Virus record (IMG/VR): IMGVR_UViG_3300036826_000050
Span: 1-64,000 of that record
Reading direction: 5' to 3' (one strand)
From: a virus
DNA: 64,000 bases
Both the position numbers and the translations under genes were made by a program. Shown piece after piece: positions 1 through 64,000 of this stretch (its first letter is position 1; each line of letters begins with the position of its first letter). The notes below the pieces were generated by a model. The model was not told where the DNA came from and made no database searches. It was given only the letters and a program-made list of their open reading frames with translations.

Positions 1-176
1 TTCAGGGCTGCAAGCGCCGTGATGGCCGCCATTAGCTCCATTCGTTGATTCGTCGTGTTTGACGTATAGCCGGTGACGATCTTCTCGCGTCCTGGCGACA
101 CGAGGATTGCGCCCCAGCCGCCAGACTTATCGACGGGTGATGCGGAGCCGTCCGTGAAGATTGTTACGTCAGCCAT
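1..176 (-). CDS. rnhA: RNase HI, N-terminal part (gene continues across the window ends)
   Basis: This is the first 58 codons of a ribonuclease HI, which cuts the RNA strand of RNA-DNA hybrids and can remove primers during replication. It starts at ATG 176 and runs off base 1. The sequence shows the first catalytic Asp in FTDGSA (residues 7-12), the G-x-GAIL strand, the YTSNTTNQRMELMAA segment with the catalytic Glu, and then ALAAL. This matches E. coli RNase HI residue for residue in order. The second catalytic Asp (STDS in E. coli) lies in the unseen gap. The remainder of the gene is at 63731-64000. The start overlaps the end of the upstream 96-residue gene by 8 bases, so translation is probably coupled. 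Confidence 0.93.
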   Translation of the reverse strand, partial: MADVTIFTDGSASPVDKSGGWGAILVSPGREKIVTGYTSNTTNQRMELMAAITALAAL

Positions 177-9783: not shown

Positions 9784-10049
9784 TTGCTGGCTCCCTTCGC
9801 GACCTTCATGAAGTGGTACAGAGCGTAGCACTCCTCATCGTCCAGCGTCGTGTTGTCGCGAAGATCGACGTGGAGGATTGCCTGGGCCGTGCGTTTGCGC
9901 GGCTTGACCTGCCAGTACGTGACCGAGCTACCGGCCGGGATCGCAATCACATGAACGCTACCGTGGTCTGCATCCTTGACGCAGCGCTGGCCTGGTTGGA
10001 TGACTTCGTTCTCGGGCATAGTCCAATCGCAACGAATCAGATCGCTCAT
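9780..10049 (-). CDS. Hypothetical protein, 89 aa
   Basis: This is a small protein between the primase-helicase and the FAD oxidoreductase, overlapping both by four bases. It carries CDWTMPENEVIQPGQRC near the N-terminus and a His-rich middle. No family was recognised. Confidence 0.68.
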   Translation of the reverse strand: MSDLIRCDWTMPENEVIQPGQRCVKDADHGSVHVIAIPAGSSVTYWQVKPRKRTAQAILHVDLRDNTTLDDEECYALYHFMKVAKGASK

Positions 10050-12832
10050 CTCACTCTCCTTAGCAGGTCATGAAGCGTCGGCTCGACCCAGATGTCGCCT
10101 TTGAGCTTTCGTACCATTCGTGCTTCGTACAGAGTTGAGATGATCGCGTTGGCTTCCTCGCGATCTACATTCAGGACTTCCTCAACGTCCTGGCGGCGGA
10201 ACTTGCCTGCGCTGCGGAGGAACTTCGCCAAGCCCGGCTTATCCGCCAGGTAGCGCCGAATCCTGCGCCTGTTCTTCATCGCCTCTTTGCGGTCATTGAT
10301 TAGCTCGCGCGACCGCTCGGCATATCCGAACCCAGGCATGTCGTAAATCTGATCCATGAACCGGACCGCCGCTTGTACATGCGGTTTACGCACGACGATC
10401 CGTTCATAGGTGGAGTCCGTCGAGAACAGACGCGCTGCGATAGCGACGGCTAGGCGCGCAATCTTCTCACGAACATTTGCCACTTGGACGAGGGGCGGGT
10501 CCTCAACGTACCGCTTCCCCATATCGTTCGCTAACTTGTAGACCTCCTGTTCCGCTGAGTCCATCCAGATTACCTGCTCGGGCGTCCGACTCCAAACCCA
10601 TTGTACGAGAGTCATGCAAGCCTCGGCGTTGAACTTCTGTCGGCCAAGCTTATGCCTGCGGTTGATTACCTCTGCTGGTACGTCACCAGCTTGCACACTC
10701 ATTGCGAGGTCGAACCTGGCTATGTCCTCTGGGTTCCCGATCAGAGGTTGGATCTGTTGTACACCGTACGTCTTGTCCGACATGCGGCCGCCACGCGGAT
10801 TACTCATCCAGATGATCCGTGTCCTCGCATAGGTCCGCTCTTGCTGGATCTTCGTTAGCTCAGCGACGCCGGATGAGCGGACCGACGACATCTGCGCAAT
10901 CTCTTCAGTGGTCAGACCGCCCGCCTCGTCTAGGACAACGAGCCGTCGGTCATTGATCGGAATCGCGCCCCAATTGATCGACCATTCCTTCGCACCGCCG
11001 TACTGCTGCAGACCGCCGATGATGCCCGCGAAGCTTGCTGCCTCACACGACACGACCTCGCCAACGTTGTAGAACCGACAGAGCCTCGTCGCCGCCTCGC
11101 TCTTGCCCGTGCGAGTATCGCCGATGACTAGCATCTCAAGCCAGCCGCGATGAACCCGCTTGCCGTCGAAGTCGAACGCCAGGACCGAGTGGAACGTCAG
11201 ATCGAGCGCCGCGTGCATCTCAGGGAGGCCATAGATATGCGTCACGTGCTGGCTTAGGTCGTTCGCAATCTCGCCCAGCCGCCGGAGAGGGGGCTGTCCC
11301 CTGCGTGGCCGGAATCGCTTCATCTTCTGGATCATCGAGTTGTCGAGTGAGAAGCGGTCGATGGAGGATTCGGTCTTGGCTACATCCCACGCTTGAAACT
11401 CGTTTGTATGCTTGCGGGGATCGGGTTGGAGCGCGCCGACGACTCTGACCGTATTGTTCGGTTGCGTATCGTGACGTCCGACCGATGTGATCTTGATCGA
11501 CTTGTAATCGCCTGCGCCGCCATTCCCGCTCGCAGGACCACTCACGTGCTCAACGGACGGTCGTGCGTACAGAATCTCGACTGACTGGTACTCGGTGATC
11601 TCGACGTGAAGCTTGGGGCACTTGACGATATCAGCCCTGGCGCGAGCGGCGTCTTTGACCTGTTTATCGGTCGAGTCCATCATGGCCAAGATCACCGGGT
11701 CGCTACCGGCGATGATCTGTTCGTCGTCACCAGTCGCGAACAACGGGCAGAAGTTACATTTGACCCCGGCGTCCCGTGTACAGCGGAACCGGACCTTGCG
11801 CGGGATCGAGTATCCAGGCTCGCGCTTGCCCTTGATAGTCACCGTCAGTCTGACCGGCTTACCGACTTGGCGCGAGTCGAGCGCTTCAAGCGCCGTGGTG
11901 TCGGTTGGGTCGAGTCGCTCAGGTTCCTCAGATGCGAGTTCGGGATCGAACAGTTCGGCCTCTTCCAACAAGCGGAGGAAGCTGCCCGAGTCTTGCTCGT
12001 GTTCCATCCACCAGTCCGTGAGGTCCTTGCCGTTCTTCTCGATGATGGGGTAGGGTAGGCGCAGTATCCGTACCTCGCGCGCCGACCGCATGAGCGCTCG
12101 ACCGATCCGGCGGTTGGCGTCCTGGCCGGTCTCATCGCAGTCGTGGCAGAGGTAGACAACCTTGTCCTTGAACTCTGAGTTCCACTTTGCGTTCCAGACC
12201 AGGGCCGCGCCAGTCTTGGTGACAGCTGGGAAACCGTTTTGCGAAGTAATAATTGCATCAAGCTCCCCTTCGCACACAATCAGCTTATCGCTATCCATCG
12301 ACTTGATCGGATAGAGGCGCGGCTGATTCATCCCCTCGATGCCCCAGATTTTCCGCCGACCCTTGGGAGGTCGAAGCTGGTAGCGACGGATGTTGAGGAT
12401 GTCGCCCTCGACTGAGCGGATCGGGATTGTGTAGCACTCGCGCCCTGAGTCCCAGCCGATCTCATAGTCGGACAGGGTCTTGGTAGTGAGTCCGCGCGTC
12501 GTAATCAGTTCTTCGAGCGCGACCTCATTAGCGTGGAGCGCGCCGATCCAACCCGTGATCTTGGCTTCGCTAATGGTTTCCATCGGTTGCCCGCTAACTC
12601 GACCATTCGTACCAGAGGGCGATACCCAATTGTCGATCTGGTCGATGAGTTCGCTGATCTTACCGCCGCCGCAACCGGCGTGGCAGTACCAGACGCCCTT
12701 CTCAAAGTTTATCTGAGCGCTCCGCTTACGGTCAACGTGAAGCGGGCAGTGGAGGTCCCACTCCCCATCCTCGCGCGGTCGCTCACCTACGAGGTAGGGA
12801 CGCAGGAGCCGAATCTGCTCCTTGGTCGACAT
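10046..12832 (-). CDS. Primase-helicase fusion: DnaG-type primase with MCM-like AAA+ helicase
   Basis: This 928-residue protein looks like the whole priming and unwinding machine of the replisome. Domains in order: a CHC2-type zinc finger (C29, H32, C50, C54); a Toprim domain with VCEGELDA (E188, E190) and HDCDETG (D231, D233); a middle region with four cysteines (C351, C359, C362, C405) and an OB-like stretch ending VRVVGALQPDP, reminiscent of the MCM N-terminal domain; and an MCM-like AAA+ core with Walker A GDTRTGKS (571-578), Walker B LVVLDE (631-636), a pre-sensor hairpin, sensor Asn in WMSNPRGG (675-682) and an Arg finger in ARFD (705-708). The C-terminus looks like a winged helix. Bacterial replicative helicases are normally DnaB-type, so an MCM-type motor here is unusual. 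Confidence 0.9.
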   Translation of the reverse strand: MSTKEQIRLLRPYLVGERPREDGEWDLHCPLHVDRKRSAQINFEKGVWYCHAGCGGGKISELIDQIDNWVSPSGTNGRVSGQPMETISEAKITGWIGALHANEVALEELITTRGLTTKTLSDYEIGWDSGRECYTIPIRSVEGDILNIRRYQLRPPKGRRKIWGIEGMNQPRLYPIKSMDSDKLIVCEGELDAIITSQNGFPAVTKTGAALVWNAKWNSEFKDKVVYLCHDCDETGQDANRRIGRALMRSAREVRILRLPYPIIEKNGKDLTDWWMEHEQDSGSFLRLLEEAELFDPELASEEPERLDPTDTTALEALDSRQVGKPVRLTVTIKGKREPGYSIPRKVRFRCTRDAGVKCNFCPLFATGDDEQIIAGSDPVILAMMDSTDKQVKDAARARADIVKCPKLHVEITEYQSVEILYARPSVEHVSGPASGNGGAGDYKSIKITSVGRHDTQPNNTVRVVGALQPDPRKHTNEFQAWDVAKTESSIDRFSLDNSMIQKMKRFRPRRGQPPLRRLGEIANDLSQHVTHIYGLPEMHAALDLTFHSVLAFDFDGKRVHRGWLEMLVIGDTRTGKSEAATRLCRFYNVGEVVSCEAASFAGIIGGLQQYGGAKEWSINWGAIPINDRRLVVLDEAGGLTTEEIAQMSSVRSSGVAELTKIQQERTYARTRIIWMSNPRGGRMSDKTYGVQQIQPLIGNPEDIARFDLAMSVQAGDVPAEVINRRHKLGRQKFNAEACMTLVQWVWSRTPEQVIWMDSAEQEVYKLANDMGKRYVEDPPLVQVANVREKIARLAVAIAARLFSTDSTYERIVVRKPHVQAAVRFMDQIYDMPGFGYAERSRELINDRKEAMKNRRRIRRYLADKPGLAKFLRSAGKFRRQDVEEVLNVDREEANAIISTLYEARMVRKLKGDIWVEPTLHDLLRRVR

Positions 12833-13120: not shown

Positions 13121-14200
13121 TCAGAAGGGGTTGTCGTCGTCCTCGTCGTCCTTGCCGAGCCTGCCGGCCAGGACCTTCTTGGACCCCTTCGTGGACAGGC
13201 CGCGCTCCTGCGCCTCCTTCTTGAGCGCGTCCATCGACCAGGAGTTGTAGTCCACGGGCACCTCGTCGTCCTCGGTGTCGGACGCCTCGATGATCGCCTC
13301 GCGGATGTCCTCGTCCTCCATGGACTTCTTGACGCTGATGTCGAGTTCGTTCTCGCGGATGTACGCCTTCAGCTCAGAGCGGTCCATGTCGGCCAACTCG
13401 GCTTCCAGGTCGGACTCGGACTCGGTGTCGTCCTCGTCCTCGTCCTCATCCTCGTCCTCGTCCTCGTCATCCTCGTCGTCGGTGTCCTCGTCGGCCTCGT
13501 CCTCCGTGTCGTCGGCGTCCTCGTCGTCCTGGTCCTCGTCCTCGTCCTCGTCCTCCTGCTCCTCGGCCTGCGCCTCCAGGATGGCGCGGATGAGCCGCTT
13601 CTTCTTCATCGGCGTCATCTTGCCGGAGGGCTTGTCCAGCTCGAACTCGTCGGTGGCGACCTCGACCAGCTCCTTGTCGTCCATCGCCTCCAGGTCGGCG
13701 CGGGTGTACTCGTCGCCGTCCTCGTCCTCGTCAGGCTCCGGCTCGGGCGCGGTCTTGCGCGCCGACGCCTTGGCGCCGTCCTTGCCGGCCAGCTGCAGGA
13801 GCTTGCCGACGCGGGGCCGGTAGTTGTCGTCGAGGTCCGTGTCGGGCTTGAGGTTCATCTGGACCTCGGTGCCGACGATCTTGTCGGTGTCGAGGACGCC
13901 CTTGTCCTTGAGGGCGACGGCCTTGATGAACTCCTTCAGCTTCCAGTCGCTCGGCTCGTGCTCCAGGAGCACGTAGGTGTAGACGCGGGCGACCTGCTTC
14001 TTCTTGTCCTTGACCTTGACGGCCTTGCCGTCCGCCGTCTTGACGGGCTGGAGGATGACCTCCAGCATCGGGCCGTTGCCGGACTTCGACTCCTTGTGGT
14101 TGATCTCGGTGATCTTGCCGATGTACATGCCCGGCGGGACGTGCTCGAAGCCGCCGGAGTCGTCCACGTTGGACACGTCATACTTGAGCTTGGGGCTCAC
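13121..14200 (-). CDS. Single-strand DNA-binding-like protein with SAP/HeH repeats and SSB-type acidic tip
   Basis: This is a 359-residue protein. The N-terminal 140 residues (starting MSPKLKYDVSNVDDSGGFEH, then a PGMY-GKI-E strand pattern) resemble phage DUF669-type single-strand binding proteins. After it come three short helical units that look like SAP, HeH or Rho-N domains: YTRADLEAMDDKELVEV onward, DLEAELADMDRSELKAYIRE, and SWSMDALKKEAQERGLSTKG at the C-terminus. They are separated by a very long Asp/Glu tract. The last residues are DDDNPF, nearly identical to the DDDIPF tip with which bacterial SSB recruits partners. It sits next to the Sak4-type ATPase and the primase-helicase and probably coats ssDNA at the fork. 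Confidence 0.82.
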   Translation of the reverse strand: MSPKLKYDVSNVDDSGGFEHVPPGMYIGKITEINHKESKSGNGPMLEVILQPVKTADGKAVKVKDKKKQVARVYTYVLLEHEPSDWKLKEFIKAVALKDKGVLDTDKIVGTEVQMNLKPDTDLDDNYRPRVGKLLQLAGKDGAKASARKTAPEPEPDEDEDGDEYTRADLEAMDDKELVEVATDEFELDKPSGKMTPMKKKRLIRAILEAQAEEQEDEDEDEDQDDEDADDTEDEADEDTDDEDDEDEDEDEDEDEDDTESESDLEAELADMDRSELKAYIRENELDISVKKSMEDEDIREAIIEASDTEDDEVPVDYNSWSMDALKKEAQERGLSTKGSKKVLAGRLGKDDEDDDNPF

Positions 14201-23108: not shown

Positions 23109-23385
23109 CGTCGCCCGGTCGCGGCCAGCCAGCGCGAGTCTCGCCAGCGAGCGAATCGTCGTCATCGGTCGGCAGTTCGGCCGCGTCTTTGTTGATCAGA
23201 TCGACGACATTGACGAGGTTCTTGAGCAGCTCGTCGGGGAAGAGCATGACGTCGCCAAAAACATTCAGCTCGCCGCTTGGGACATCGAACTGCTCGTCGC
23301 GCGGAACTCGCCAGACAGCGATGTCGAACTCGGGCATATCGCTCTCTTTGAGCGAGGCCAAGTGAAGTCCGATTAGATACATCAT
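23101..23385 (-). CDS. Hypothetical protein, 94 aa
   Basis: This is the first gene of the helicase operon. The leader has the short hairpin with embedded ribosome site (23393-23408), eight bases before ATG 23385. The product has an acidic C-terminus and no known motif. Confidence 0.66.
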   Translation of the reverse strand: MMYLIGLHLASLKESDMPEFDIAVWRVPRDEQFDVPSGELNVFGDVMLFPDELLKNLVNVVDLINKDAAELPTDDDDSLAGETRAGWPRPGDDD

Positions 23386-23392
23386 GTTACTT

Positions 23393-23408
23393 GATCCTCC
23401 TAGGGATC
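23393..23408 (-). promoter_or_regulatory. Start-associated hairpin holding the ribosome-binding site
   Basis: On the minus strand GATCC-CTAGGA-GGATC forms a five-base-pair stem whose loop and 3' arm contain the AGGAGG ribosome site of the 94-residue gene. Equivalent hairpins with different paired bases precede other operon-leading genes. Confidence 0.6.
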
Positions 23409-23447
23409 GGCTTGATAGATATGCGGGGCGACGGCTTCAGGGTCACC

Positions 23448-26810: not shown

Positions 26811-27530
26811 TTAGAGGATCGGCTGGGAGTAGTCGTACTTGTCGGTGTCTTCGACGTCACCGGCAGGGTCGAGTCCCGCGTCGCTGATCGCGCGGCGAGC
26901 CGCGCTGACGCGACGCTTCCACTCGTCCTCCTCATGCCAGTAGCCGCCGCAGACCGGGCCGATGGAGAGCGCGCGGCTGATCCGGTTCGTGAGCCGGAGG
27001 CCGCATCGTGAGCAACATCCGATCTCAGCGCCGTAGCGGTGGGCGCACTCCCAGGCCCCCGCCTCCTTGATCTTGCTGACGATACTGAGCGCCGACTTGA
27101 ACGGTATCTCACTCTCGTCGGGGCCATGCTCGACGTAGAGCTTGAAGTAGTTGGGGTTGCGGGTCCCGCGCCAGAGGCGGTAGAACCGCAGCTCACCGTC
27201 CTCGTTCTCGATGGCGTACCGGCCGGTGGGCAGGTCATCCGCTGACGGGACGGTCGCGCTCGCGCCGCCGCGCTGAACGTTACGCTCGCGCGGTAGCTGC
27301 GGGAACGTCAGTAGGTGCTCGATCCAGCGGCTCGCGGTCGGCTTGTCGAGGTCGGCCGCGCGCTCCTTGAGGTCCGCGATTGCGGCGGCGTACTCTTCGT
27401 CAGTCGCGGCGAGGACCTTGGGGGACTGACGGAGGTCGCGCTCATCGAGCAGGTCGGTGAGGAACTTCAGCTGAGGCGCGGTGATTCCATTCTCGGCGGC
27501 GAACTCAGCGGGCACAGGCGTCCTTCTCAT
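26811..27530 (-). CDS. Protein with DUF6011-like zinc finger, 239 aa
   Basis: The N-terminal part is helical (LKFLTDLLDERDLRQ). The middle has GRYAIENEDGELRFYRLWRG, a small beta domain. The C-terminal CSRCGLRLTNRISRALSIGP plus VCGGYW fits the DUF6011 zinc knuckle. Such proteins are widespread in actinophages and unexplained. It heads its operon, with the hairpin at 27538-27553. Confidence 0.74.
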   Translation of the reverse strand: MRRTPVPAEFAAENGITAPQLKFLTDLLDERDLRQSPKVLAATDEEYAAAIADLKERAADLDKPTASRWIEHLLTFPQLPRERNVQRGGASATVPSADDLPTGRYAIENEDGELRFYRLWRGTRNPNYFKLYVEHGPDESEIPFKSALSIVSKIKEAGAWECAHRYGAEIGCCSRCGLRLTNRISRALSIGPVCGGYWHEEDEWKRRVSAARRAISDAGLDPAGDVEDTDKYDYSQPIL

Positions 27531-27537
27531 CTTACTT

Positions 27538-27553
27538 GATCCTCCTTAGGATC
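27538..27553 (-). promoter_or_regulatory. Start-associated hairpin holding the ribosome-binding site
   Basis: On the minus strand GATCCT-AAGG-AGGATC forms a six-base-pair stem with a four-base loop; the ribosome site AAGGAGG spans loop and 3' arm. ATG 27530 follows eight bases later. Confidence 0.62.
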
Positions 27554-27586
27554 GGCTTGATTAGCGGGGCGGTTCCCCTACGGGGG

Positions 27587-27758: not shown

Positions 27759-28007
27759 TTACCGAATGTCTACGATGTCCTTCACCCTCACGGTCCTCAG
27801 TCCGCCCTTCGATGAGATGAACTGAATGAGGTCATCCTTGCGCTCGCCGTGAGAGTCAGTCGGTCCGGCGGGAAGCCAGCGCCGGACCGACGTGACGTGG
27901 TGTTCCCCTTCGACCATCGGCATGCGGGTTCCGTCGCCGCGTGTATGGTGAGGAGATATGACGTAGACCTTTCTGCCCTTGAGCAGATGGTAGTTGCGCT
28001 CGGTCAG
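27759..28007 (-). CDS. Hypothetical protein, up to 82 aa, start uncertain (possible CTG)
   Basis: The frame stays open and reads like protein (ERNYHLLKGRKVYVISPHHT, then RWLPAGPTDSHGERKDDLIQ). It has no ATG, GTG or TTG until codon 29 (ATG 27923). A CTG at 28007 overlaps the upstream stop as CTGA, exactly where a coupled start would be expected. Either CTG is used or the gene is the shorter 54-residue form. Function unknown. Confidence 0.5.
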   Translation of the reverse strand: MTERNYHLLKGRKVYVISPHHTRGDGTRMPMVEGEHHVTSVRRWLPAGPTDSHGERKDDLIQFISSKGGLRTVRVKDIVDIR

Positions 28008-28618
28008 TCCTCGCTTGAAGGGCGGGAGCGACGGCGCTTGCCGGCGGTCTTGGGCTTGTCGGCCGTCTTGGTCGCCGTGCCGGACTTGGAGCGCGAGCGC
28101 TTGGGCTTGGGGGCCTCCTCCTGCTCGTCCTCGTCCTCCATGTCCTCGTCCTCGTCGTCAGCGCCGCCGTTGCTCGTGTAGATGCGGCCCTCGACGTCAG
28201 CGCCGCCCTCGGCCGCCAGCTCCTTGGCCTCGGCGACGGTGATCCCGAGCGACGTGGCGATGGAGTACCAGGCGACGCCCGCGTTGCGGGCCTCGGCCAC
28301 CGACTCCGGATCGTCGGTCAGGCCCTCGACCTTGGCGTTCGTGAGGCGGGCGATGTGCGGTCGCAGCTGGGCGCCGTTGAAGCCGAGTTCCTCCTGGACC
28401 TCGACCCAGGTGGCGCCTTCCTCGCGCATGTCGGCCGCGCGCTGGGCGATGTCCTCGGTGATCCGTCGGCGCGTCGATGCCGGCTCGTCGTCCTCGTCCT
28501 CGTCATCCTCGTCCTCGTCAGCCTCGGCCTCGGCGGCCTTGGCCTTCGCCCGACGGGATGTCCCGGTCTTCTTGGCGGCGGCGGTATCCGCTGCCTTCTT
28601 CCTACGTGCCTGGGGCAT
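28004..28618 (-). CDS. DNA-binding-like protein with two helix-turn-helix units and charged tails (paralogue of 36063-36539)
   Basis: This 204-residue protein has a basic, then acidic N-terminal tail. Two short helical units follow: TWVEVQEELGFNGAQLRPHI (about residues 75-94) and GVAWYSIATSLGITVAEAKE. A GRIYTS strand comes next, and the protein ends in a Lys/Arg/Ser-rich tail. The same order is seen in the 158-residue gene at 36063-36539 (FNGATLRPHIAKH, AWYSIADALG, SRVYRA). These look like helix-turn-helix repeats with histone-like tails, suggesting a regulator or nucleoid-type protein. Not assigned to a family. Confidence 0.72.
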   Translation of the reverse strand: MPQARRKKAADTAAAKKTGTSRRAKAKAAEAEADEDEDDEDEDDEPASTRRRITEDIAQRAADMREEGATWVEVQEELGFNGAQLRPHIARLTNAKVEGLTDDPESVAEARNAGVAWYSIATSLGITVAEAKELAAEGGADVEGRIYTSNGGADDEDEDMEDEDEQEEAPKPKRSRSKSGTATKTADKPKTAGKRRRSRPSSED

Positions 28619-36062: not shown

Positions 36063-36539
36063 CTAGGCCGCCTTCTTGGCGGCGCGGCGGGCGCGGGCCT
36101 TGGGGGCGGGCTTCGGCTTGGCCTCGGCCTTGGGCTCCGGCTTGACCTCCGCCTTGGCGGCGGGCTTGGCGCGGTAGACGCGGGACTCGGCCGGCATCTT
36201 GTCCGACTGGGCGCCGAGCATGCGGCACTTCGCCTCGCTGACCCCGAGCGCGTCCGCGATCGAGTACCAGGCCATGCCTCGCGCCCTCGCGAGGGCGATG
36301 GAGTCCGCGTCGAGCTTGACCGGCTCGACGAAGGCGTAGGGGCTGTCGACCCGGTCGCCCTTCTGGACCGGCGCGCGGTTCAGTTCGACCTGGTGGAGGT
36401 GCTTCGCGATGTGGGGCCGGAGGGTCGCGCCGTTGAAGCCGGTGGCCTCGATGACCTGGGCCCAGGACCCGCCGCCCTCGCGGATGCGGAGGGCCTTGAT
36501 GACGTCGTCCTTGCCGACGGTACGCTTGCTGCTAGACAT
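36063..36539 (-). CDS. DNA-binding-like protein with two helix-turn-helix units and basic tail (paralogue of 28004-28618)
   Basis: This 158-residue protein has two units, SWAQVIEATGFNGATLRPHI (about residues 25-44) and MAWYSIADALGVSEAKCR, followed by SRVYRA and a Lys/Ala/Pro-rich histone-H1-like tail. Unit order and sequence match the 204-residue gene at 28004-28618. It is the first minus-strand gene left of the divergent control region, with AAGGA eight bases before its ATG. A regulator of early/late expression or a DNA-packing protein are both possible. Confidence 0.72.
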   Translation of the reverse strand: MSSSKRTVGKDDVIKALRIREGGGSWAQVIEATGFNGATLRPHIAKHLHQVELNRAPVQKGDRVDSPYAFVEPVKLDADSIALARARGMAWYSIADALGVSEAKCRMLGAQSDKMPAESRVYRAKPAAKAEVKPEPKAEAKPKPAPKARARRAAKKAA

Positions 36540-38519: not shown

Positions 38520-39917
38520 ATGCCGTATTGGTACAGTCCAGGCAATCGCGGTCCCCTGGACATCCGCATGCCCGACGGGTATTGTCCGCACAGCCCGACG
38601 ACGAAGCAGCATGCGGCGCTCCTGCCCGAGTGGATGCTGGAGCTACTGTACGGTGGTCAAGCAGGCGGCGGCAAGTCGGACTGGCTCCTCATGGGCGCGC
38701 TTCAGTACGTCGATGTGCGGGAGTACGCAGCCCTGATCCTGCGGCGGTCGTTCCAGGACTTGCGCCGACCGGGCGCGATCATGTCACGCGCCAAGGCCTG
38801 GCTCTCGGACACCGATGCCGTCTGGAACGAGAACAACCATGAGTTCACGTTTCCCTCAGGCGCAAAGCTGGAGTTTGGCTTCCTCAAGTCCGACGATGAC
38901 GTCTTCAACTACCAGTCAGCGGAGTACCAGTACATCGGCATCGATGAGCTCACGCAGTTCACGGAGTTCCAGTACACCTACCTCATGTCGCGCCTCCGTC
39001 GCCCCAGCGGCGTCGAGGATGACCACCCACTCGCCAAAGTTCCACTCCGCTGCCGTACAGCGAGCAATCCGGGCGGTCGCGGCCATCAGTGGGTCCGTCG
39101 TCGCCTCGTTGAAGCGGATCATCCGGAGCGTATGTTCATTCCTGCGGGCTTGGCGGACAACCCGCATCTTGACATGGTCTCGTACCGCCGAGCGCTTGCG
39201 ATGCTCGACGATCATACGCGCGCACAACTTGAGTTCGGCGACTGGACAGCCCGCCCGCCAGGGCCGTGGTGCTTCAACCACAAACACATCGACGCAGCCA
39301 TCGAGCGCGGGGCTGTACTCGATCAGAAACGCAAGGACGGTCTACTACCAGAGCCGGTTGGTGGATACCTCAAGGTCGGTGCAGACTTTGGCGAGGCCGC
39401 GCACTTTGTGGTTGGGTGGCCGCTAGAGCGTAAGGGCATGTACCTCTGCGCTGAACATACCTTCGAGCATGGCGAGCCTGACGTCGAGGCGTACAAGGTC
39501 ATCGATAAGTGCGATGGACTTGGCTGGCTCATGGACCGGATGCGCTACGACGCCAGCAAGCCCGAGTCAGCCCGGCTCGCGCGCCGGACGTTTGCGCGTG
39601 AACGCGGCGAGGGATACGGCAAGCCGTCCGCGATCTCATTCGCAAAGTACAAGCGGGCAGCCATCCTGCACCAACGTCGCATGCTGCGACTGGCATGGAA
39701 GGCGCTCTCGAATCCAGACGTGCTGGGATATCTGGCGATCAGCCCGACGCTGGAGCACTATATCAAGCAGATTTATGAACTTCAGTTCAAGGGCGAGGAC
39801 ACGGAAGACCTGGTCAAGCTCGACGATCACGGCCCGGACGCCGGTTTTGCCCTGATAACGCCGCTGACGAAGGCGTACGACAGCGTCCAAGAGGAACGCG
39901 AGGCGGTGCACCCGTGA
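38520..39917 (+). CDS. terL: Terminase large subunit
   Basis: This 465-residue motor and nuclease packages DNA into the prohead. The ATPase has Walker A LYGGQAGGGKS (43-53), Walker B YIGIDE (138-143) and the coupling segment ASNPGGRGHQW. The RNase H-like nuclease shows VGADFG (Asp 289), an acidic Asp in RYDASKPES, and LDDHGPDAGFAL near the C-terminus. The length and order are normal for siphophage TerL. The stop overlaps the portal start (GTGA). Confidence 0.95.
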   Translation: MPYWYSPGNRGPLDIRMPDGYCPHSPTTKQHAALLPEWMLELLYGGQAGGGKSDWLLMGALQYVDVREYAALILRRSFQDLRRPGAIMSRAKAWLSDTDAVWNENNHEFTFPSGAKLEFGFLKSDDDVFNYQSAEYQYIGIDELTQFTEFQYTYLMSRLRRPSGVEDDHPLAKVPLRCRTASNPGGRGHQWVRRRLVEADHPERMFIPAGLADNPHLDMVSYRRALAMLDDHTRAQLEFGDWTARPPGPWCFNHKHIDAAIERGAVLDQKRKDGLLPEPVGGYLKVGADFGEAAHFVVGWPLERKGMYLCAEHTFEHGEPDVEAYKVIDKCDGLGWLMDRMRYDASKPESARLARRTFARERGEGYGKPSAISFAKYKRAAILHQRRMLRLAWKALSNPDVLGYLAISPTLEHYIKQIYELQFKGEDTEDLVKLDDHGPDAGFALITPLTKAYDSVQEEREAVHP

Positions 39918-41506
39918 CGATTGAGCTGCTCAGAGAGGAACTTGAGACCGGGCAGCAGAAGATGGCCTGGGCTTTCAACGCTGCTACCAGCGAACTCCCC
40001 AAGTGGATTGCGTTCCGCGAGAGCAACCGCGACTACCTGGCGTCGATCCACCCCGGCGGATGGAAGGGCGGGCGCATCTACCACCACGATCCCATGGCGA
40101 GCAAGATCAGCAACGCCTTCGCTGACTTCCTCTATGGCGAGGACCCCGCTTACAAGCCGTTCGACACCGCCGACTCTGAGCTTCTCGACAACCTTCTGAT
40201 CGCAAACGAGTTCACGACGGAGATTCACCAGGCCGTTCGTGTCTTCTCGTCAGAGGGCGAGGTCTGGTTCCGCATCTACACGGACCCCGAGCAGTCCGAC
40301 TACCCACTGATCGAGTGGCATTCGCGTGCGACGGTGTTCCCGTACTGGCGAGGCCGGTCACTTTCGGCAGTAGCATTCGTGTATGAGCTGTCGCGCTCGG
40401 AGAACGAGGTCTGGCGATACGTCCAGTACCATGAAAAGTTCCGTGCCGAGAACGCTTTGTACAAGTCAACGGCAGGTACGAGTGGCGCCGGCAGCAAGGG
40501 CAAGGACGACATACCAGAGTTGGACATCACTGAGCTGCAGAAGTTGGGCAAGCCGCAGCCTTTGACCGCGAACCCATACACGGCTGAGTTGGATGATGAG
40601 TGGAATCACGACATTCCCGCCATCCTCGCTGGCCGTTACATCAACAACGTGCCACGCAGCCGCCAGATCGGCAAGTCCGACTATGATGGCGTCGAGGATT
40701 TGCTGTTCGACCTCAACGAGGCGCACAGCGTCGATGCCGAAAACTTCAAACTGGCCGGCAAGAAGCGCGCGATCATGCCGCGCAAGTACCAGAACCAGGC
40801 GGGCGATGCCGAGATCAGTGAGGAAATCTTCTGGGTCGAAGAAGGCACAGACGAAATGGAGCCGGATCAGGGTCCGTTCAAGATCCTTGAGTACGACTAC
40901 GACGCCGACTCAAGCATCAAGCGCAAGGAGGACCTGGAACGTACCATCGTCACGCGCGTCGGCCTTGTTCGACAGTTTGTCGACAGCAGCACGGCAGACG
41001 GTTGGGCGCAATCCGGCACCGCGCTCCGTACCAGGCTGTTGCCGACGGCACTCGCCGCGCACGGCAAGGCGCGCGAGTGGGACGAACTTCTGCCCAAGAC
41101 GCTCGGCCTGTTGCAACAGGTTGACGCCTTGCCAGAAGGACAAGGCGGATTTGGACGGCCGTGGAAGCAGCCTGCGGGCCTCCCGAGCATCACACGTGCG
41201 ACCGTCCTGCCTGAGGACCCGGCCGATCAGGCGGCGCGTCATCAGACGCTGATCGCCAACGAGCTAGAGTCCATCGAGACTGCAGTTGACGACCTACACC
41301 CGGACTGGACCCCGGATCGCAAGATGCTGGAGGTCAGACGGATTCTCGCCAACCGCAACGGAGAAGCCTTGGATGACCAGGGCAACGTGATCGTTGTCGA
41401 GGGCGGTGGCGGTCTGGTGCAAAAGATCGCACCCGAACCCTCAGCAGCGGATCAGAAGCACTCGACATCCAACGGCGCAACCGCCCCGGCGGGGAGTGGG
41501 GCATGA
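39914..41506 (+). CDS. Portal protein
   Basis: This 530-residue protein directly follows TerL and starts at GTG 39914. The pattern HHDPMASKISNAFADFLYGE, then GEVWFRIYTDPE and a long helical C-terminal region, fits SPP1 gp6-type portals, the dodecameric ring at the capsid vertex through which DNA passes. The C-terminus is low-complexity. Confidence 0.9.
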   Translation: MTIELLREELETGQQKMAWAFNAATSELPKWIAFRESNRDYLASIHPGGWKGGRIYHHDPMASKISNAFADFLYGEDPAYKPFDTADSELLDNLLIANEFTTEIHQAVRVFSSEGEVWFRIYTDPEQSDYPLIEWHSRATVFPYWRGRSLSAVAFVYELSRSENEVWRYVQYHEKFRAENALYKSTAGTSGAGSKGKDDIPELDITELQKLGKPQPLTANPYTAELDDEWNHDIPAILAGRYINNVPRSRQIGKSDYDGVEDLLFDLNEAHSVDAENFKLAGKKRAIMPRKYQNQAGDAEISEEIFWVEEGTDEMEPDQGPFKILEYDYDADSSIKRKEDLERTIVTRVGLVRQFVDSSTADGWAQSGTALRTRLLPTALAAHGKAREWDELLPKTLGLLQQVDALPEGQGGFGRPWKQPAGLPSITRATVLPEDPADQAARHQTLIANELESIETAVDDLHPDWTPDRKMLEVRRILANRNGEALDDQGNVIVVEGGGGLVQKIAPEPSAADQKHSTSNGATAPAGSGA

Positions 41507-42481: not shown

Positions 42482-43339
42482 ATGTCGATCAACAACTTCA
42501 TCCCGGTCATCTGGTCGGCACGAATCGCGCTCGGTCTGGAGAAGGCGTTCGTGTACGGTCAGCCCGGGGTGATCAACCGCGATTTCGAGGGCGAGATCAG
42601 CGAAGCGGGCGACACGGTCTACATCAACAGCATCGGCGATCCGACGATCTTCACCTACACGAAGAACACGGACATGCCGGTGCCGGAGACCCTGTCGGAC
42701 GCGCGGGTCACGCTCCTCATCGATCAGGCCAAGGGCTTCAACTTCCAGGTCGATGACGTGGACCGGGCGCAGACCCGGCCCGACGTCATGGACACGGCGA
42801 TGCAGCGCGCGGCCTACAAGCTGTCCGACATCACCGACCAGTACGTCGCCGGCAAGATGGCGGCGGGCGCGGATGCGTCCAACGCGCTGGGATCGACGGC
42901 CACGCCGTTGGTTCCGACGCTCGGGACGTACACCGATCCGCTCAACGTCTACAACATCCTCGTGGACGCCAGCACGAAGCTCAACCAGAACAACGTGCCG
43001 CGCGACGGGCGGTTCGTGATCATCCCGCCGTGGTACGAGGGCCTCCTGCGCAAGGACGAGCGCTTCGTGCCGACCGACGATGTCCGACTCAACGGCGTGA
43101 TCGGTCGCGCCGCCGGGTTCGACATCCTCGTGTCGAACAACGTGCCGACGGTGACCGGCACGAAGTACCAGATCGTCTTCGGCCACTCGATGGCCATGAC
43201 GTTCGCCGACCAGATCAACAAGACCGAGGCGTACCGTCCGGAGCGCAGGTTCGGCGACGCGGTGAAGGGGCTGCACCTGTACGGTGGCGGCGTCACCCAG
43301 CCGCTGGCTCTCGGCCTCCTGACCGTCTCCCAGACCTGA
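42482..43339 (+). CDS. Major capsid protein
   Basis: This 285-residue protein is in the canonical major-capsid position. The N-terminal NNFIPVIWSARIALGLEKA, then a beta hinge (GDTVYINSIGDP), a spine helix region with DVMDTAMQRAAYKLSDITDQ and a PxxYEGLLRKDERF turn with the FDILVSNNVP P-domain fit an HK97-fold coat protein of the P22-like group. No cleavable N-terminal delta domain is apparent, consistent with a separate scaffold. Confidence 0.93.
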   Translation: MSINNFIPVIWSARIALGLEKAFVYGQPGVINRDFEGEISEAGDTVYINSIGDPTIFTYTKNTDMPVPETLSDARVTLLIDQAKGFNFQVDDVDRAQTRPDVMDTAMQRAAYKLSDITDQYVAGKMAAGADASNALGSTATPLVPTLGTYTDPLNVYNILVDASTKLNQNNVPRDGRFVIIPPWYEGLLRKDERFVPTDDVRLNGVIGRAAGFDILVSNNVPTVTGTKYQIVFGHSMAMTFADQINKTEAYRPERRFGDAVKGLHLYGGGVTQPLALGLLTVSQT

Positions 43340-48803: not shown

Positions 48804-49042
48804 AACAAGGACTCACGGTTCCCAAGATCAATGACCTCGCTGATGTGTACATGGACTCTCATGACGTCGAACTGTTCGAGTTCGGAGTAGCCATGTACTA
48901 CGCGGTCAACGCTCCCAAGGAACTCAGGAAGATGGAGCCGAAGCGTGTCGTAGCCGAGGCTACTGCCGAGGAACTTCCGAGCATGCTGCGGATTCCCAAG
49001 GACCGTACCAAGCGGGCGCCTGCGAGGCATGATGGCGGATAG
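48291..49042 (+). CDS. Tail assembly chaperone, long form (gpGT-like) made by -1 frameshift
   Basis: After codon 127 a slip of one base backwards on G-GGA-AAG leads into a frame that stays open to TGA 49040-49042, adding 123 residues (for example HLARVAWREWGISNAEFWDT and VYMDSHDVELFEFG). The downstream domain has no good start of its own and resembles the T part of lambda gpGT. Total length would be about 250 residues. Its end overlaps the tape measure start. Confidence 0.75.
48665..48671 (+). other. Programmed -1 frameshift site GGGAAAG
   Basis: In frame it reads TTG-GGA-AAG, a G-GGA-AAG heptamer identical to the one used in lambda G/GT. Another weaker possibility is the GGGG run at about 48719-48723. 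Confidence 0.75.
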
Positions 49043-51902
49043 CGTCGCCAATCTATTCCTCAGGATCTTCTCCGACAAGGGCGACGCGGCCTCGGATGTT
49101 GGCGAGGTCGCCGCCGCCCTGGAGGCGCTCGATCACGTCAAGGCCGAGGCCGAGGCCAACGTCGATGTCCAAGAGGGTCAGCTTGACCTCTTCATGGCAC
49201 AACTTGAGGAGTTTGACGGGAAGAAGTACACCGCTGAGGCCGACATCAAGACCGACCAACTGAAGCTGTTCCAGAAGGAACTGGAAGGCGTCGTCGCCAC
49301 GGATTGGCGTTCGAGGTTCATGAAGAGCTTCGACATCGGCGAGTTCACGCAACTTCCTCCGCATCAACAGATGCAGATGGACGTTGACGTGGATACGGGG
49401 AAAGCCGAGTCAGAGCTACATGCCTTCCAGCTGGAACTCGATTTTGCGACGAGGGATCGAACCGTCAACATTGACGTTGATAAGGGTCGAGGGTTGGGCA
49501 ACTTCAGCAAGATCGGCGGGCTAATCACATCGGCGTTCGGAAGTCTTGCCGAAGATGCTGCCGGGGCCAAGGATGCGCTCAGTTCAATGGGCCAGGGGAT
49601 CGGCCGCGTGACAGTCAACCTCGGTATGTTCGGCGCGCGCTTGGGTCCGGTCGTGGTCCTCGTGCTCGGACTCGGGGCTGCCATCGCAATCTCGCTCGTT
49701 GCCGCGCTTGCTGCTCTTGCCTCATCAGCAGCGCTCGCCGCTGCAGCTCTCGGCGCACTCGCCATAGCCCTCGCTGGCGCTCTGGGTCCGATGCTCGCAA
49801 TCGCGATCCCTGCCTTCCTAGCGCTAAGCAAGGTTCTGAAGGTCCTGTCGACGCAACAGCAGGATGCCGCGACAGCCGCGCAGAGGAAGGCGCGAGCGGA
49901 TCAACAAGCCGCGCAGTACGCGCAGCAGCACGCGGATGCTGAACGAACTCTTCAGCAAGCGGTCAGGGCGCGCAAAGACGCGACGGTCGCTGCTTATCGT
50001 GAGATGCAGGACGCGATTGAGCGCGTCGCCGACTCATATCGGGACCTTGAGCATGCAGAGCTATCCGAGCAGCGTGCTCAACTCAACATAAAGCTTGCGA
50101 AGAAGGCACTCTCCGACTTCCGCAAGGAGGCGGGACTCACCGGCGATGTGCTCGATAAGGCGTTCACTAAGTTCACCGACGTTGACTTCCGAGGCACGGC
50201 GACCGATCTCACCAAGGAGATTGAAGCCGCAAGCGGGAAGAACCTGAGCCTGGATGACCAGCTCAAACTCCAGGGCCTCATTCTTGACGTCAAGGATGCC
50301 AAGCTTGCCGAGAAGGACGCGACCGACGGCGTCAGCGATGCCGAGCGCGAGAACGCGCGGGCAAAGCAAGATGTCGCGAAGTTCTACAAGGATGGCATCA
50401 AAGCCTCGGACCAGTACAGGGCTGCACTTGAGCGCGTAGCAGACGCACAGCGCTCCCTTGCCAGGCTGAAGCAGGGTCGGCAGTTTGAGCTTCAGAATCA
50501 GGCGATGGAGAATGCGAAGTCGAAGACGGCGCAACTGTCGTCCGAGGAACGCAAGCTGCTCGAAGCTATCAAGAAGCTCTATGGAGCCTTCAAGACGGCA
50601 TTCGGCCCGGCCGTCACCGCTCTACTCGACGGAGTGATCAGCGGGTTGGAAGGCATCGATACGGCCATGATCGGTCTGAAGGGAAGCCTGAAGACGCTCG
50701 GCCGTGCCATGGGCAAGTCTATCGGTGGGTTCCTCAAGTTGCTTTCCAGCCCTGAAGCCGGGGCGTTGTTCCAGGCACTGATCGATGGCGCGACACAGCT
50801 GGCGCCGTTCATCGGCTCGGTCTTTGGCTCTCTGTTCGAACTGCTCACGAAGATCGCCGTTGCCGCGATGCCGTTCCTGGTCAAGATGTTCGGTGATTTT
50901 GCCGGTTGGCTAGCCGACATAGCCAAGAACACGTCGCTCCAGGACATCACCGACTTCATTATGCAGTTGATCCCGCACTTGCAGACTTGGCTCGGGATCG
51001 CCGGTGCCTTGGCCGAGGGGTTCTTCGGCATGATAATGGCTATGGCGCCGCAGGGGCAGGAACTCGCCACTGCGATTGGTGACATAGCGAGGGACCTGGC
51101 CGAGTGGGCAAACTCGGCGCAGGGGCGTGAGGAGATCAAGGCATTCCTCCGCGATGCGATCCCGAACGCGGTCAGATTCGTCAAGGCCGTCTTCAAAATC
51201 GTCACGTTCCTCGGCAAGCTTGTTCCAGTCGCAAATGGCGTTGGATCGGCAATGGACTTCCTCTGGCAGGCATTGCTTCCGGTCCGACTCATCATCCGTG
51301 GGATTGTTTGGGTCATCCAGAAGCTCGCGGGCCTGGCTGGCACTCTGTCCGTCAAGCTTGAGAACTTCGCCAACAAGATTCCTGGAATGTTCAGTAGCGT
51401 CTTTGAGACGGTCAAGGGCGTCTGGGAGGATATCAAGGGTCTCTTCTCAGGACTGTGGAACACATTCTACGACTTCGGCAAGAATATCATCAATGGCCTG
51501 AAGGATGGCGTCCTGGCCGTTGCGCAAGACCTCTTCAACGCCATCAAGGACACCGTCATGGCGCCGGTCGATTGGGTCAAGGGCAAGCTCCATATCGGCT
51601 CGCCGTCCAAGCTCATGATGGAAATGGGCCACAATGTCGGGCGCGGCTTTGAAATCGGGATCCAGCGCGCCGGTGGTCGTGTCATGACCGCTGCAGCTGG
51701 ATCACTCGTGGCGCCCGTCGCTGCTGCAGGGGCTGCGGGCGCAGGTGCAGGTGCTGGATTCATAATCCAGAATCAGAACGTCAATCTTCCGCCCGCGCCT
51801 GGTCATGGGCAGATGGGCGATCCGCGTCATCAGGCGGCGCAATTCGCTGCCGAGCTACGACGACGCGGCGGACAGGGCCTCGGTGGAGGGGGTGTGCGGT
51901 AA
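49029..51902 (+). CDS. Tape measure protein
   Basis: This 957-residue protein sets tail length. Helical repeats and two hydrophobic stretches (VVLVLGLGAAIAISLVAALA and, later, FFGMIMAMAPQGQEL) are seen, plus a coiled coil (AQRKARADQQAAQYAQQHAD) and a C-terminal VKGKLHIGSPSKLMMEMGHN motif typical of siphophage tape measures. By the usual 0.15 nm per residue the tail would be about 140 nm. ATG 49029 and 49032 are adjacent alternatives. Confidence 0.93.
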   Translation: MMADSVANLFLRIFSDKGDAASDVGEVAAALEALDHVKAEAEANVDVQEGQLDLFMAQLEEFDGKKYTAEADIKTDQLKLFQKELEGVVATDWRSRFMKSFDIGEFTQLPPHQQMQMDVDVDTGKAESELHAFQLELDFATRDRTVNIDVDKGRGLGNFSKIGGLITSAFGSLAEDAAGAKDALSSMGQGIGRVTVNLGMFGARLGPVVVLVLGLGAAIAISLVAALAALASSAALAAAALGALAIALAGALGPMLAIAIPAFLALSKVLKVLSTQQQDAATAAQRKARADQQAAQYAQQHADAERTLQQAVRARKDATVAAYREMQDAIERVADSYRDLEHAELSEQRAQLNIKLAKKALSDFRKEAGLTGDVLDKAFTKFTDVDFRGTATDLTKEIEAASGKNLSLDDQLKLQGLILDVKDAKLAEKDATDGVSDAERENARAKQDVAKFYKDGIKASDQYRAALERVADAQRSLARLKQGRQFELQNQAMENAKSKTAQLSSEERKLLEAIKKLYGAFKTAFGPAVTALLDGVISGLEGIDTAMIGLKGSLKTLGRAMGKSIGGFLKLLSSPEAGALFQALIDGATQLAPFIGSVFGSLFELLTKIAVAAMPFLVKMFGDFAGWLADIAKNTSLQDITDFIMQLIPHLQTWLGIAGALAEGFFGMIMAMAPQGQELATAIGDIARDLAEWANSAQGREEIKAFLRDAIPNAVRFVKAVFKIVTFLGKLVPVANGVGSAMDFLWQALLPVRLIIRGIVWVIQKLAGLAGTLSVKLENFANKIPGMFSSVFETVKGVWEDIKGLFSGLWNTFYDFGKNIINGLKDGVLAVAQDLFNAIKDTVMAPVDWVKGKLHIGSPSKLMMEMGHNVGRGFEIGIQRAGGRVMTAAAGSLVAPVAAAGAAGAGAGAGFIIQNQNVNLPPAPGHGQMGDPRHQAAQFAAELRRRGGQGLGGGGVR

Positions 51903-55966: not shown

Positions 55967-58135
55967 ATGCCGAACGTGACACTGGTAGGAGGACCGGACA
56001 ACGGGACCGTTATCAACCTCGGGAACCCTTGGCCCAGGGACACCTTCCAGTACAACGGCTTTGCTTATCAGGTCAACCCTGGCGGCCCGCCTTACTCGGC
56101 AGCCTGGCTCGACCCCGCCTCGTCAACATTTACGGGTGATGATACAACTGGCTCCGAGGGCGCGCAAGGTCCGCCTGGGCCGATGGGTCCGCCTGGCGAT
56201 CCCGGCATCGAGGGTCCGCCTGGTAAGGGTATCGACCATAAGGGCGTCTGGGACCCGGCGACAACCTACGCGCTCAATGATGTTGTGAACTGGGGCGGCG
56301 ACGCTTCATATATCTCGCTGACCGATGAGAACCTGAACCATCAGCCCGACGACCCAGCCTCATCACCCAACTGGGGCCTCCTAGCTGAGGGGCTGCCGGG
56401 TCCCATCGGTCCGCCTGGTGTTGTTGAAGTCTTCGAGCAGCCTGAGGAGCCTCCTGAGCCGCCGGTGGTCGAAATTGGCGCGATCTGGATCGACACAGAC
56501 GAGCCGCCGCCGAGCGGAGGGAGCGTGGTTGGCCCCGAGGGTCCGCCTGGCCCAGAGGGTCCCGCTGGTCCCGAGGGGCCTGAAGGTCCTGCCGGTCCTG
56601 CCGGTCCTGCCGGCGCAGACGGGGCTGCAGGCCCTGCTGGCGCGGCCGGTCCAGAAGGTCCTGAAGGTCCGCCCGGTGATGACGGACCTCCCGGCGCAGA
56701 TGGACCAGCTGGCGCCCAGGGACCACCCGGCGCGGATGGTGCAGATGGCGCTGCCGGTCCTGCGGGTCCCGCTGGCCCTGCTGGTCCTACTGGCCCACAA
56801 GGCGAGGTCGCTGCAACTTGGATGGGTCCTTGGAATGCAGCTACGATGTACAATTATCGTGATGTTGTTCAGTATCAGGGATCAAGTTATCTGCTCATTG
56901 ATGCCCATGCAATCGGTGCTGGGCAATCGCCTGGCTCGGGCACCGGACAATGGGAGCTACTAGCGGCCAAGGGCGACGCCGGGGCCGCTGGGCCTGCTGG
57001 ACCCAACGTTCGGATCGACCAGCTAGTCCAGCCCGCGCTCGGTAGCTACAACATGGGCGGCAATGGTGTCCTGACGAACCTAGCCGATCCGAATAACAGT
57101 AGCGATTCGGCTAACAAGGGCTATGTTGATCGTATCACCGATTTGCTTGGATTCAAGAAGCCTTGTCGTGCTGTTGCGACTACGAATCAGGCACTTGTAG
57201 GATTCCCGACCATCGATGGCGTGAATCTTATGGGGCTCAATCGTGTCCTCGTCGTCGGGCAGACCGATCCCAAGCAGAACGGCATCTATGTCGTGCCCGG
57301 CGACGCGAGCGCATGGACACGACCGAGCGATGCTGACGCGATCAGTAAACTTGCAGCGGCATTTGTTTGGGTCGAGGAAGGTACGGCAAGTGCCGATACC
57401 GCCTGGGAATGCACAAACGACCGCACCGGCTCCGTTGGCGCAACTAATATTGCGTTCACAAAGGTTCTGCCGGTCACCGGCAGCGGCGGTGGGTTGACAG
57501 AAGTCTACACCGGTGCGGCCGCTCCTTCGCCACGTGGTGACTCGGTCATCTGGATCGACACTGATGAGTCTCCGACTCTGATCTATCCGCCGCCGCTTGT
57601 TTCAACTTTGCCCTCATCACCTGCAGATGGGCAAGAGGTCTACTACCAGAGCGCGGCGATGGCATTGTTGGGTATCGTCTGGCATCTCAAGTTTCGCGAC
57701 ACTATGGGCTTGACCTTCTTCAACTGGGAGTTCTTGGGTGGCGGTTCCTTGTTCGATTCGATTGCGGCGACCCAGTCTTCATCAAATGTAAGCTATGTTG
57801 ATCTCGCGACCGTAGGACCATCCATTCCCTTGCCGCTGAGCGGTGACTATATTGTCGAATGGGGCGCGGACGTGCAAGAATACAGCACAGCGCAATACAT
57901 GGGCATCGGAGTCTGGAATGGTAGCGTCTGGACGCAAGTCGGTAATCCGATGTACGCGCAGGTAAATGCTACTGGAATCAGTGGCGTGCGGGCTTCACGC
58001 TCGAAGGCCGCAAAGATGACTGGTATAGTTGGAGGGGCGGCTAACAGCCTCAGAGCGCGCTATGCTACGAGCGCGGCCACTAGTCTGGCTTGGTCAGATA
58101 GATGGCTGAAGGCAACTCCGGTGAGGGTGAACTGA
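55967..58135 (+). CDS. Collagen-like tail fibre, 722 aa
   Basis: The protein begins with a short head domain. A first Gly-X-Y block covers about residues 62-88. Then comes a [20 protein letters not shown] module resembling small carbohydrate-binding (CBM5/12-like) units, and a second Gly-X-Y block at residues 189-279 (about 30 triplets, mostly GPA, GPE and GAD). A second similar module ([20 protein letters not shown]) follows. The C-terminal third contains [26 protein letters not shown] and a beta-sandwich shared with the next gene. It should form a trimeric fibre for cell-surface binding. Confidence 0.88.
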
Positions 58136-61877: not shown

Positions 61878-62478
<601 letters not shown>

Positions 62479-62486
62479 GAGGTCTT

Positions 62487-62717
62487 ATGACCGAGGAAGA
62501 AGAACGCATCCCCATCCCCAACGGCCACGAGTCGATGGAGGCGACCGGCGACTTTGCCGAGGGCGACGACATCGATGACATGGAGGACATCGACGGCACG
62601 GAGCCTGACGAGTACGACGGCGATATGGACGAAGACGCCTCCAACCCTGACGAGGTCGAGTCGTTCAATCTCGCCGACCCTCCCGACGATCTGGTGGCCA
62701 ACAATGTCGATGACTAA
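62487..62717 (+). CDS. Very acidic small protein, 76 aa
   Basis: AGGAGG lies just before ATG 62487. Asp and Glu make up about 40 % (GDDIDDMEDIDGTEPDEYDG). Likely unstructured; no family. Confidence 0.6.
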   Translation: MTEEEERIPIPNGHESMEATGDFAEGDDIDDMEDIDGTEPDEYDGDMDEDASNPDEVESFNLADPPDDLVANNVDD

Positions 62718-63210
62718 GGAGCAGCGCACAAGAGCGCGTCGCGCCGCCGTCAACGCCGCCTGGATCGGCTACAACCATCGCGGTGCCGTTCACTACACGC
62801 AGGGTAGCTCGCGCTGGCAGGGCATCGCCGACACGCGCTACTCAGCCAAGGGCCAATACCCCAACGAGGCCGACTGCTCGGCGTACGCGACGTGGTGTCT
62901 CTGGAACGGCCTGTATGTCATCTACAAGAAGCCCGACGTGGTCAACGGCGCCAGCTGGAAGGCGGGCTTCACCGGCACGATGCTCGAACACGGCCGTGCC
63001 ATCGAGCACATCAAGAATGTGCGGTGGGCGGATTGCGTGATCTACGGCGTCCCCGGCACCGTCGGCAAGCACGTGGCGATCATCGTCGGCAAGAAGAACG
63101 GCGTGCCGATGGTCATCAGCCATGGCTCGGAGGGCGGGCCGTACTACCTGCCCTACAACTACCGCAAGGACATCCAGTCGATCCGGCGTTACATCCACTG
63201 GAAGGCATAG
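62704..63210 (+). CDS. Endolysin (NlpC/P60-type cysteine peptidase)
   Basis: This 168-residue enzyme degrades peptidoglycan at lysis. The catalytic Cys is in NEADCSAYATW (Cys 58) and the catalytic His in GKHVAIIVG (His 123), followed by MVISHGSEGGPYY. No signal peptide or separate wall-binding domain is present, so it needs the holin. ATG 62704 has GGTGG upstream; ATG 62710 is an alternative. The longer frame upstream is a shadow of the acidic gene. Confidence 0.84.
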   Translation: MSMTKEQRTRARRAAVNAAWIGYNHRGAVHYTQGSSRWQGIADTRYSAKGQYPNEADCSAYATWCLWNGLYVIYKKPDVVNGASWKAGFTGTMLEHGRAIEHIKNVRWADCVIYGVPGTVGKHVAIIVGKKNGVPMVISHGSEGGPYYLPYNYRKDIQSIRRYIHWKA

Positions 63211-63282: not shown

Positions 63283-63308
63283 AGCGCCTCGTCAGATGAC
63301 GGGGCGCT
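63283..63308. terminator. Terminator-like hairpin over the end of the 63292 gene
   Basis: agcgcctcgtc, loop agat, gacggggcgct form an 11-pair stem with one G-T pair. It overlaps the stop of the convergent minus-strand gene and probably serves both directions. Confidence 0.62.
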
Positions 63309-63834
63309 TCGTCATAAAGTCCAGGATTCTGAACAGACACTCTCGCTCCCAGTCGAGCAGCATATCGTGCTTGTTGTACCAGGGACGCAGAGTGTTTCTC
63401 CACGTCAACTGATCGTACTCGTCCGCCAGCCGCTCCATGCGGCGCTCGACGCAATCGACCAGGATTGGTAGCTGCCGTTCCCAGATCACCGTCGAGCCGA
63501 CCTGGCGCATGAGCGGGTCGATGATGGTGATCGGCCAATCGCTCCAATCTGGCGGTTCAGGGACGCTCGTGTTCTGATGGTACAAGAGCCACAGCTGTCG
63601 GTAGCCGTTACAGACCTTCCGACTGATGCGCTTATCGAACGTCTGCTGGCGTGGTGTCGCGTCACCGAGGCGGCGCGGGAACTTGACCGTGACCGACGAG
63701 GCTAGACACCAGAAGCGTGTACGTTGGAAGTCAACGTTCCCGAACGTGTTGCACGTTGCGCGATGCTCGGCGGCTTCTTTGCGAGTGAGTTTGACTCTTT
63801 CCTCTTGACGTAGCAATTCCCTGTCTCCTTGCAT
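63292..63834 (-). CDS. Hypothetical protein, 180 aa
   Basis: This is a Trp/Arg-rich protein of unknown function, convergent with the endolysin. It overlaps the RNase H end. ATG 63834 follows GTG 63837; a TTG at 63816 has AAGGAG eight bases upstream and may be the true start, giving 174 residues. Two Cys-containing stretches (RFWCLASS and RKVCNGYRQLWLLYHQ) do not form an obvious metal site. Confidence 0.68.
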   Translation of the reverse strand: MQGDRELLRQEERVKLTRKEAAEHRATCNTFGNVDFQRTRFWCLASSVTVKFPRRLGDATPRQQTFDKRISRKVCNGYRQLWLLYHQNTSVPEPPDWSDWPITIIDPLMRQVGSTVIWERQLPILVDCVERRMERLADEYDQLTWRNTLRPWYNKHDMLLDWERECLFRILDFMTKRPVI

Positions 63835-64000
63835 CACTGGCGAGCCTATCTACACGCTCATTGACAGCGTGCCCAGCGTGGCCTTTGACATGAATGAATT
63901 CTACGTCGTACAATACCACGAGTGATTCTAAAGTTTCCCACAACTCGCGATTGGCGACGGGTTTGTTACGGTAGTTGCGCCATCCGTTGGCGACCCAATT
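63731..64000 (-). CDS. rnhA: RNase HI, C-terminal part (gene continues at base 1-176)
   Basis: From base 64000 downward the frame reads NWVANGWRNYRNKPVANREL, then a helix, then FIHVKGHAGHAVNERVDRLA, which matches E. coli NWKKRGWK...KNVDLW...WVKGHAGHPENERCDELA. The HAG-H and N-E-R-V-D-x-LA motifs include the last catalytic acid. A basic tail of about 30 residues follows. The stop is at 63731. It completes the gene that runs off base 1. Confidence 0.92.
   Translation of the reverse strand, partial: NWVANGWRNYRNKPVANRELWETLESLVVLYDVEFIHVKGHAGHAVNERVDRLASDARRQGIATSRGKSQTHSQRSRRASRNVQHVRER

Follow-up and report, generated by a model that had tools for sequence, protein, structure and literature searches.

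Metagenomic viral contigs of the direct terminal repeat (DTR) class, as handled by CheckV and IMG-VR, are closed contigs with an end repeat of k-mer length, a random cut, and one genome equivalent. The lengths of their repeats pile up at odd k-mer lengths (55, 77, and 99 bp are named), and the reason given is that circular templates are broken at a random location, with a k-mer left at both ends; concatemer intermediates are also named among the causes of DTR contigs (CheckV; PMC8116208). End overlaps of length maxK are left by metaSPAdes and MEGAHIT (COBRA; PMC10914622). In gene layout, the described phages considered here are those of the Streptomyces BN cluster, Wentworth (MH019216) and phiRKBJ001 (MT936332). 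In Wentworth (68,260 bp), the rightward structural genes extend to 28.5 kb, and next comes a convergent leftward arm, which carries ThyX (33.6–34.7 kb), DnaE (36.1–39.3 kb), then phosphatase-like, oxidoreductase-like, RecA-like, and Cas4-like genes, and a helicase (48.4–50.3 kb). The assembly of its close relative phiRKBJ001 closed into a circle, and the genome of that phage is reported to be circularly permuted (PMC8852317).

The window analysed here, i.e., the whole stretch of 64,000 nucleotides, is G000:C1:1-64000 of a parent record (G000, a virus contig) of 64,206 bases. Past base 64,000, the parent record runs for 206 bases, of which 79 are new and the rest are an exact copy of record bases 1–127. 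This direct repeat (exact overlap length measured; chance of such an identity approximately 10^-74) exceeds the 20 bp from which a DTR is counted, is not low-complexity, and is found at the two ends of the record only, with no third place in it. One turn of the genome is 64,206 minus the 127-base end overlap, i.e., 64,079 bp. The window covers 99.9% of this turn and is short of the complete circle by 79 bases, which lie outside it as bases 64001–64079 of the record and bridge its last base (64,000) and its first. A single genome equivalent is present, with one TerL, one portal, one major head protein, and one tape measure (PHROGs), and no long internal repeats or large duplication were found in the genome. 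Thus, the window is a near-whole closed full-turn contig of a tailed-phage genome of 64,079 bp, a reading to which we give a probability of about 0.96. It does not differ from the DTR-class contigs described above and is a standard case of them. A circular assembly is what the data show, as distinct from a physically circular genome in the virion, and the wording "circular or permuted" of the first-pass annotation was an apt hedge.

The cut lies within rnhA, and the features at the seam are as follows.

1–176, minus strand: rnhA (RNase HI), 5′ portion comprising codons 1–58 and two further bases, with the ATG at 176–174 (translation, joined ORF, Pfam search of the joined protein).
63731–64000, minus strand: rnhA, 3′ portion beginning with residue 86 (NWVANGW) and closed by the stop codon at 63731–63733, with the VKGH and NERVD motifs (translation, joined ORF).
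63292–63837, minus strand: ORF of 181 aa with a GTG start; it shares bases with rnhA at the 3′ end of the latter, and the leftward arm continues with it (ORF list).
1–127, strand not applicable: direct repeat of 127 bp at the record ends, left-hand copy; its right-hand counterpart, record bases 64080–64206, lies outside the window (100% identity over 127 bases).

On the minus strand, bases 1–176 read MADVTIFTDGS...MAAITALAAL, i.e., 58 codons and two bases (N-terminal letters MADVTIFTDGSASP), and from base 64,000 downwards the reading continues in frame to the stop as NWVANGWRNYRNKPVANRELWE... (likewise NWVANGWRNYRNKPVANRELWETLESLVVLYDVEFIHVKGHAGHAVNERVDRLASDARRQ...). The 27 codons absent from the window, KPTRRWKVQLYSDSAYLVNCFKQGWIE, include the catalytic Asp motif YSDS. 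The joined gene runs on the minus strand from 176 to base 1, through the 79 bases, and on to 63,731, and encodes 174 aa without an internal stop. The first-pass annotation had taken the two window ends for halves of one rnhA on a molecule of about 64.07 kb that had been opened at an arbitrary point and ran through a full turn, and had expected about 70 missing bases (24 residues) that would keep the frame and contain an STDSxYV-like segment with the second catalytic Asp. The parent record bears this out: the missing stretch is 79 bases or 27 codons long, the frame is kept (79 + 2 = 81 = 27 codons), YSDSAYLV lies within it, the measured circle agrees with the predicted size, and the contig closes on itself through its overlap with the cut inside the gene.

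The joined protein matches the Pfam model RNase_H (PF00075) over residues 3–142 (model positions 3–139 of 141; 3.8e-39), so that the domain is covered end to end, as in a type 1 RNase HI. Among solved structures, the best match is the deposited "Rnh (Ribonuclease H)" 3h08 (9.1e-40), and the E. coli RNase HI structure is matched at approximately 1e-30. The catalytic D-E-D-H-D set is complete by motif positions and structure alignment: D9 in TDGS, E47 in MEL, D71 in YSDS, H126 in VKGH, and D136 in NERVD. The full-length domain and all five active-site residues are shared with the type 1 enzymes (E. coli rnhA, PDB 3h08), whereas a basic C-terminal extension of approximately 30 residues, overlapped by the next ORF, is particular to the enzyme of the window; a Pfam search of that ORF of 181 aa gave no match. 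By its sequence, rnhA is predicted to encode an ordinary RNase HI. Removal of RNA primers in replication is a role of the RNase HI family, and in the phage the enzyme would probably serve DNA replication as an accessory with this same task. In the viral collection, relatives of this rnhA were found at 16 loci, at most 45% identical and in unrelated phages. No neighbour genes are shared around these 16 loci, which therefore have no bearing on the seam by way of synteny.

The leftward arm of the window occupies approximately 1–37 kb and the rightward structural arm approximately 38–63.2 kb. On the circle, the 3′ end of the leftward arm is at approximately 63.3 kb, from which the arm passes through the seam and on to approximately 37 kb.

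38520–63210, plus strand: rightward structural arm (PHROGs, Pfam, ORF list).
38520–39917, plus strand: TerL.
39914–41506, plus strand: portal.
42482–43339, plus strand: major head protein.
49029–51902, plus strand: tape measure.
55967–58135, plus strand: collagen-like protein, also with a CBM5/12 carbohydrate-binding module, in the tail region.
62062–62478, plus strand: second collagen-like repeat protein, in the tail region.
62554–63210, plus strand: last rightward ORF (ORF list).
2747–27530, minus strand: leftward replication arm, colinear with that of Wentworth (Pfam; tblastn against Wentworth and its annotation).

The replication arm encodes ThyX, DnaE, a phosphatase-like and an oxidoreductase-like protein, a RecA-like ATPase, a Cas4-like nuclease, an SNF2 helicase, and a DUF2786 protein. 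By tblastn, the genes between 2.7 and 27.5 kb match Wentworth genes in the same order, the exceptions being a small gene at 17.0–17.8 kb, the match of which is out of order, and two neighbouring genes at 25.7–27.5 kb, which have changed places in the match list. Thus, the window has in common with the BN-cluster phages the two-arm layout and the colinear leftward replication arm, and it is of similar size (64 versus 68–69 kb); the assembly of phiRKBJ001 is also circular. The position corresponding to the seam is unbroken in Wentworth, where the convergent structural arm is followed by the replication arm, and the start and end of the Wentworth record (before the terminase) correspond to a place in the middle of the window where the sequence is continuous. 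Since the adjacency that is made by closing the window is unbroken in the Wentworth layout, the latter lends independent support to the join. At this place, the Wentworth annotation has no rnhA and instead has a DNA helicase gene at the convergent end.

Several further features were observed in the leftward arm. A protein of 928 aa (10046–12832, minus strand) has matches to a DnaG-type zinc ribbon, Toprim, and an MCM-like P-loop and is a probable primase-helicase. A long, repetitive Asp/Glu-rich tract (GAC/GAG; 13410–13569, minus strand) lies in a SAP-domain protein of 359 aa. A sequence of 35 bp is present in two copies (23382–23416 and 27527–27561, minus strand), which are 91% identical and directly upstream of two ATG codons; it holds AGGAGG within inverted repeat arms GATCC/GGATC and resembles the start-associated repeats of some actinophages, and its 19-bp core pattern has exactly two occurrences, with none expected by chance. 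Two stretches of 81 bp (28350–28430 and 36406–36486) are 73% identical in DNA and lie within the leftward ORFs 28004–28618 and 36063–36539, which both match the same place in the related fragment L024 and are probable paralogues. A Transglycosylase-like domain (Rpf-type, PF06737; 30993–31550, minus strand) is situated away from the structural and lysis genes, and suggests an actinobacterial host.

The likeness to Wentworth (103 annotated features) is confined to the replication arm, in which about a dozen genes of the window match at 27–48% identity, DnaE being 43% identical. Neither the terminase nor the structural genes of the window had a match in Wentworth at E 1e-4 (tblastn), and neither the nucleotide similarity nor the large share of common genes by which BN-cluster membership is judged was found. 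The major head protein is closest to those of Aeribacillus phage AP45 and phage D6E and, together with that of Streptomyces phage phiSASD1, they are 44–54% identical over the whole length; the comparison covered the capsid gene alone, and the genomes of these three phages are 37–52 kb. For the ATPase part of TerL, the nearest relatives are in Gordonia DQ-cluster phages and methanogen phage psiM2. By these comparisons, the genome is read as a mosaic, with a BN-like replication arm and differently related head and terminase genes. Relatives with close TerL and capsid genes (L021, L022, and L024) are fragments of 5.9–17 kb that stop short of the seam. A megablast search of the last 1.5 kb against the phage collection gave no DNA match, and the best identities to named phages are 54% for the capsid and 44% for DnaE; the phage is therefore a new one. 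It is tailed and probably actinobacterial. It is likely that it represents a new genus-level tailed phage, in which a BN-like replication arm goes with an unrelated capsid and packaging arm, and to which an RNase HI has been added.

Exact direct repeats at contig ends can also belong to the phage itself, as short terminal repeats are known in some linear phages. A T7-like repeat of 127 bp would place the physical ends of a linear genome inside rnhA, i.e., the whole repeat would lie within the coding sequence of a conserved enzyme, with approximately 25–26 kb between it and the terminase genes, whereas Wentworth, with its related gene layout, has its record ends before the terminase. Ten other IMG/VR records, located by an RNase H, capsid, or terminase gene, were compared at their ends: in four unrelated ones (G001, G008, G010, and G019) the end repeat is exactly 127 bp long, and the other six have no such repeat. 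Because a repeat of biological origin would not be of exactly 127 bp in several unrelated phages, and DTR lengths cluster at k-mer lengths (PMC8116208), the T7-like repeat was ruled out and retains scarcely any probability. Two of the four records, L005 (G001) and L012 (G008), are phage contigs of approximately 169 kb from the same metagenome (IMG 3300021399), and each carries an RNase HI and a DnaE-type polymerase. The largest k in common use by SPAdes-type assemblers is 127, and the repeat is almost certainly an overlap of the largest k-mer used in assembly rather than a terminal repeat of the phage. False joins can also arise from k-mer overlaps (PMC10914622), and two different molecules or strains might have been fused through a shared rnhA segment. 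Such a misassembly is highly improbable: the joined rnhA is intact, in frame, and conserved over its whole length, the gene order through the join matches that of Wentworth, and G+C is similar on either side of the seam (0.59 and 0.61). In the viral collection, which possibly lacks the window's own record, an exact search with the last 42 bases of the window gave no match, and the collection yielded no complete close relative that is cut at another point.

For the closed full-turn contig, the following course of events is proposed. The assembler would have met a closed loop in its graph, opened it at an arbitrary point within rnhA, and written its 127-base k-mer at both contig ends; the later cut to 64,000 bases took off this overlap together with 79 bases of rnhA, so that the gene is left in two halves. 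Most likely, the loop came from circularly permuted, terminally redundant packaged DNA (headful packaging), or from concatemers or circles inside cells, as permuted or concatemeric DNA would give reads over every junction, whereby the assembly graph would close. Headful packaging of circularly permuted DNA is the probable physical basis of the closure. TerL carries a T4-like Terminase_6N domain (Pfam), a type often linked with headful packaging, and a phage with the same replication arm was reported as circularly permuted (PMC8852317), although this bears only indirectly on the present phage, whose structural arm and TerL do not match those of BN phages. The rival to headful packaging (and not to the closed full turn) is that the virion DNA has fixed ends elsewhere, either cohesive or as collapsed long terminal repeats, e.g., upstream of the terminase at approximately 37–38 kb, with the circle arising only through DNA that is redundant, concatemeric, or ligated. 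In short-read assembly, a closed loop is likewise obtained from a long DTR, a concatemer, or a cos site after ligation, and concatemer intermediates are among the causes named for DTR contigs (PMC8116208). The TerL type and the permutation reported for phiRKBJ001 speak against fixed ends without being decisive, and we regard fixed ends as rather unlikely.

Thus, the seam is nothing unusual for a complete phage contig from a metagenome, and its novelty goes no further than the completeness of the genome. The window ends should be regarded as neighbours, and the half genes found there are neither pseudogenes nor split genes. The window may be taken as a complete phage genome, in which case genes that are absent from it (e.g., tRNAs) are truly lacking.
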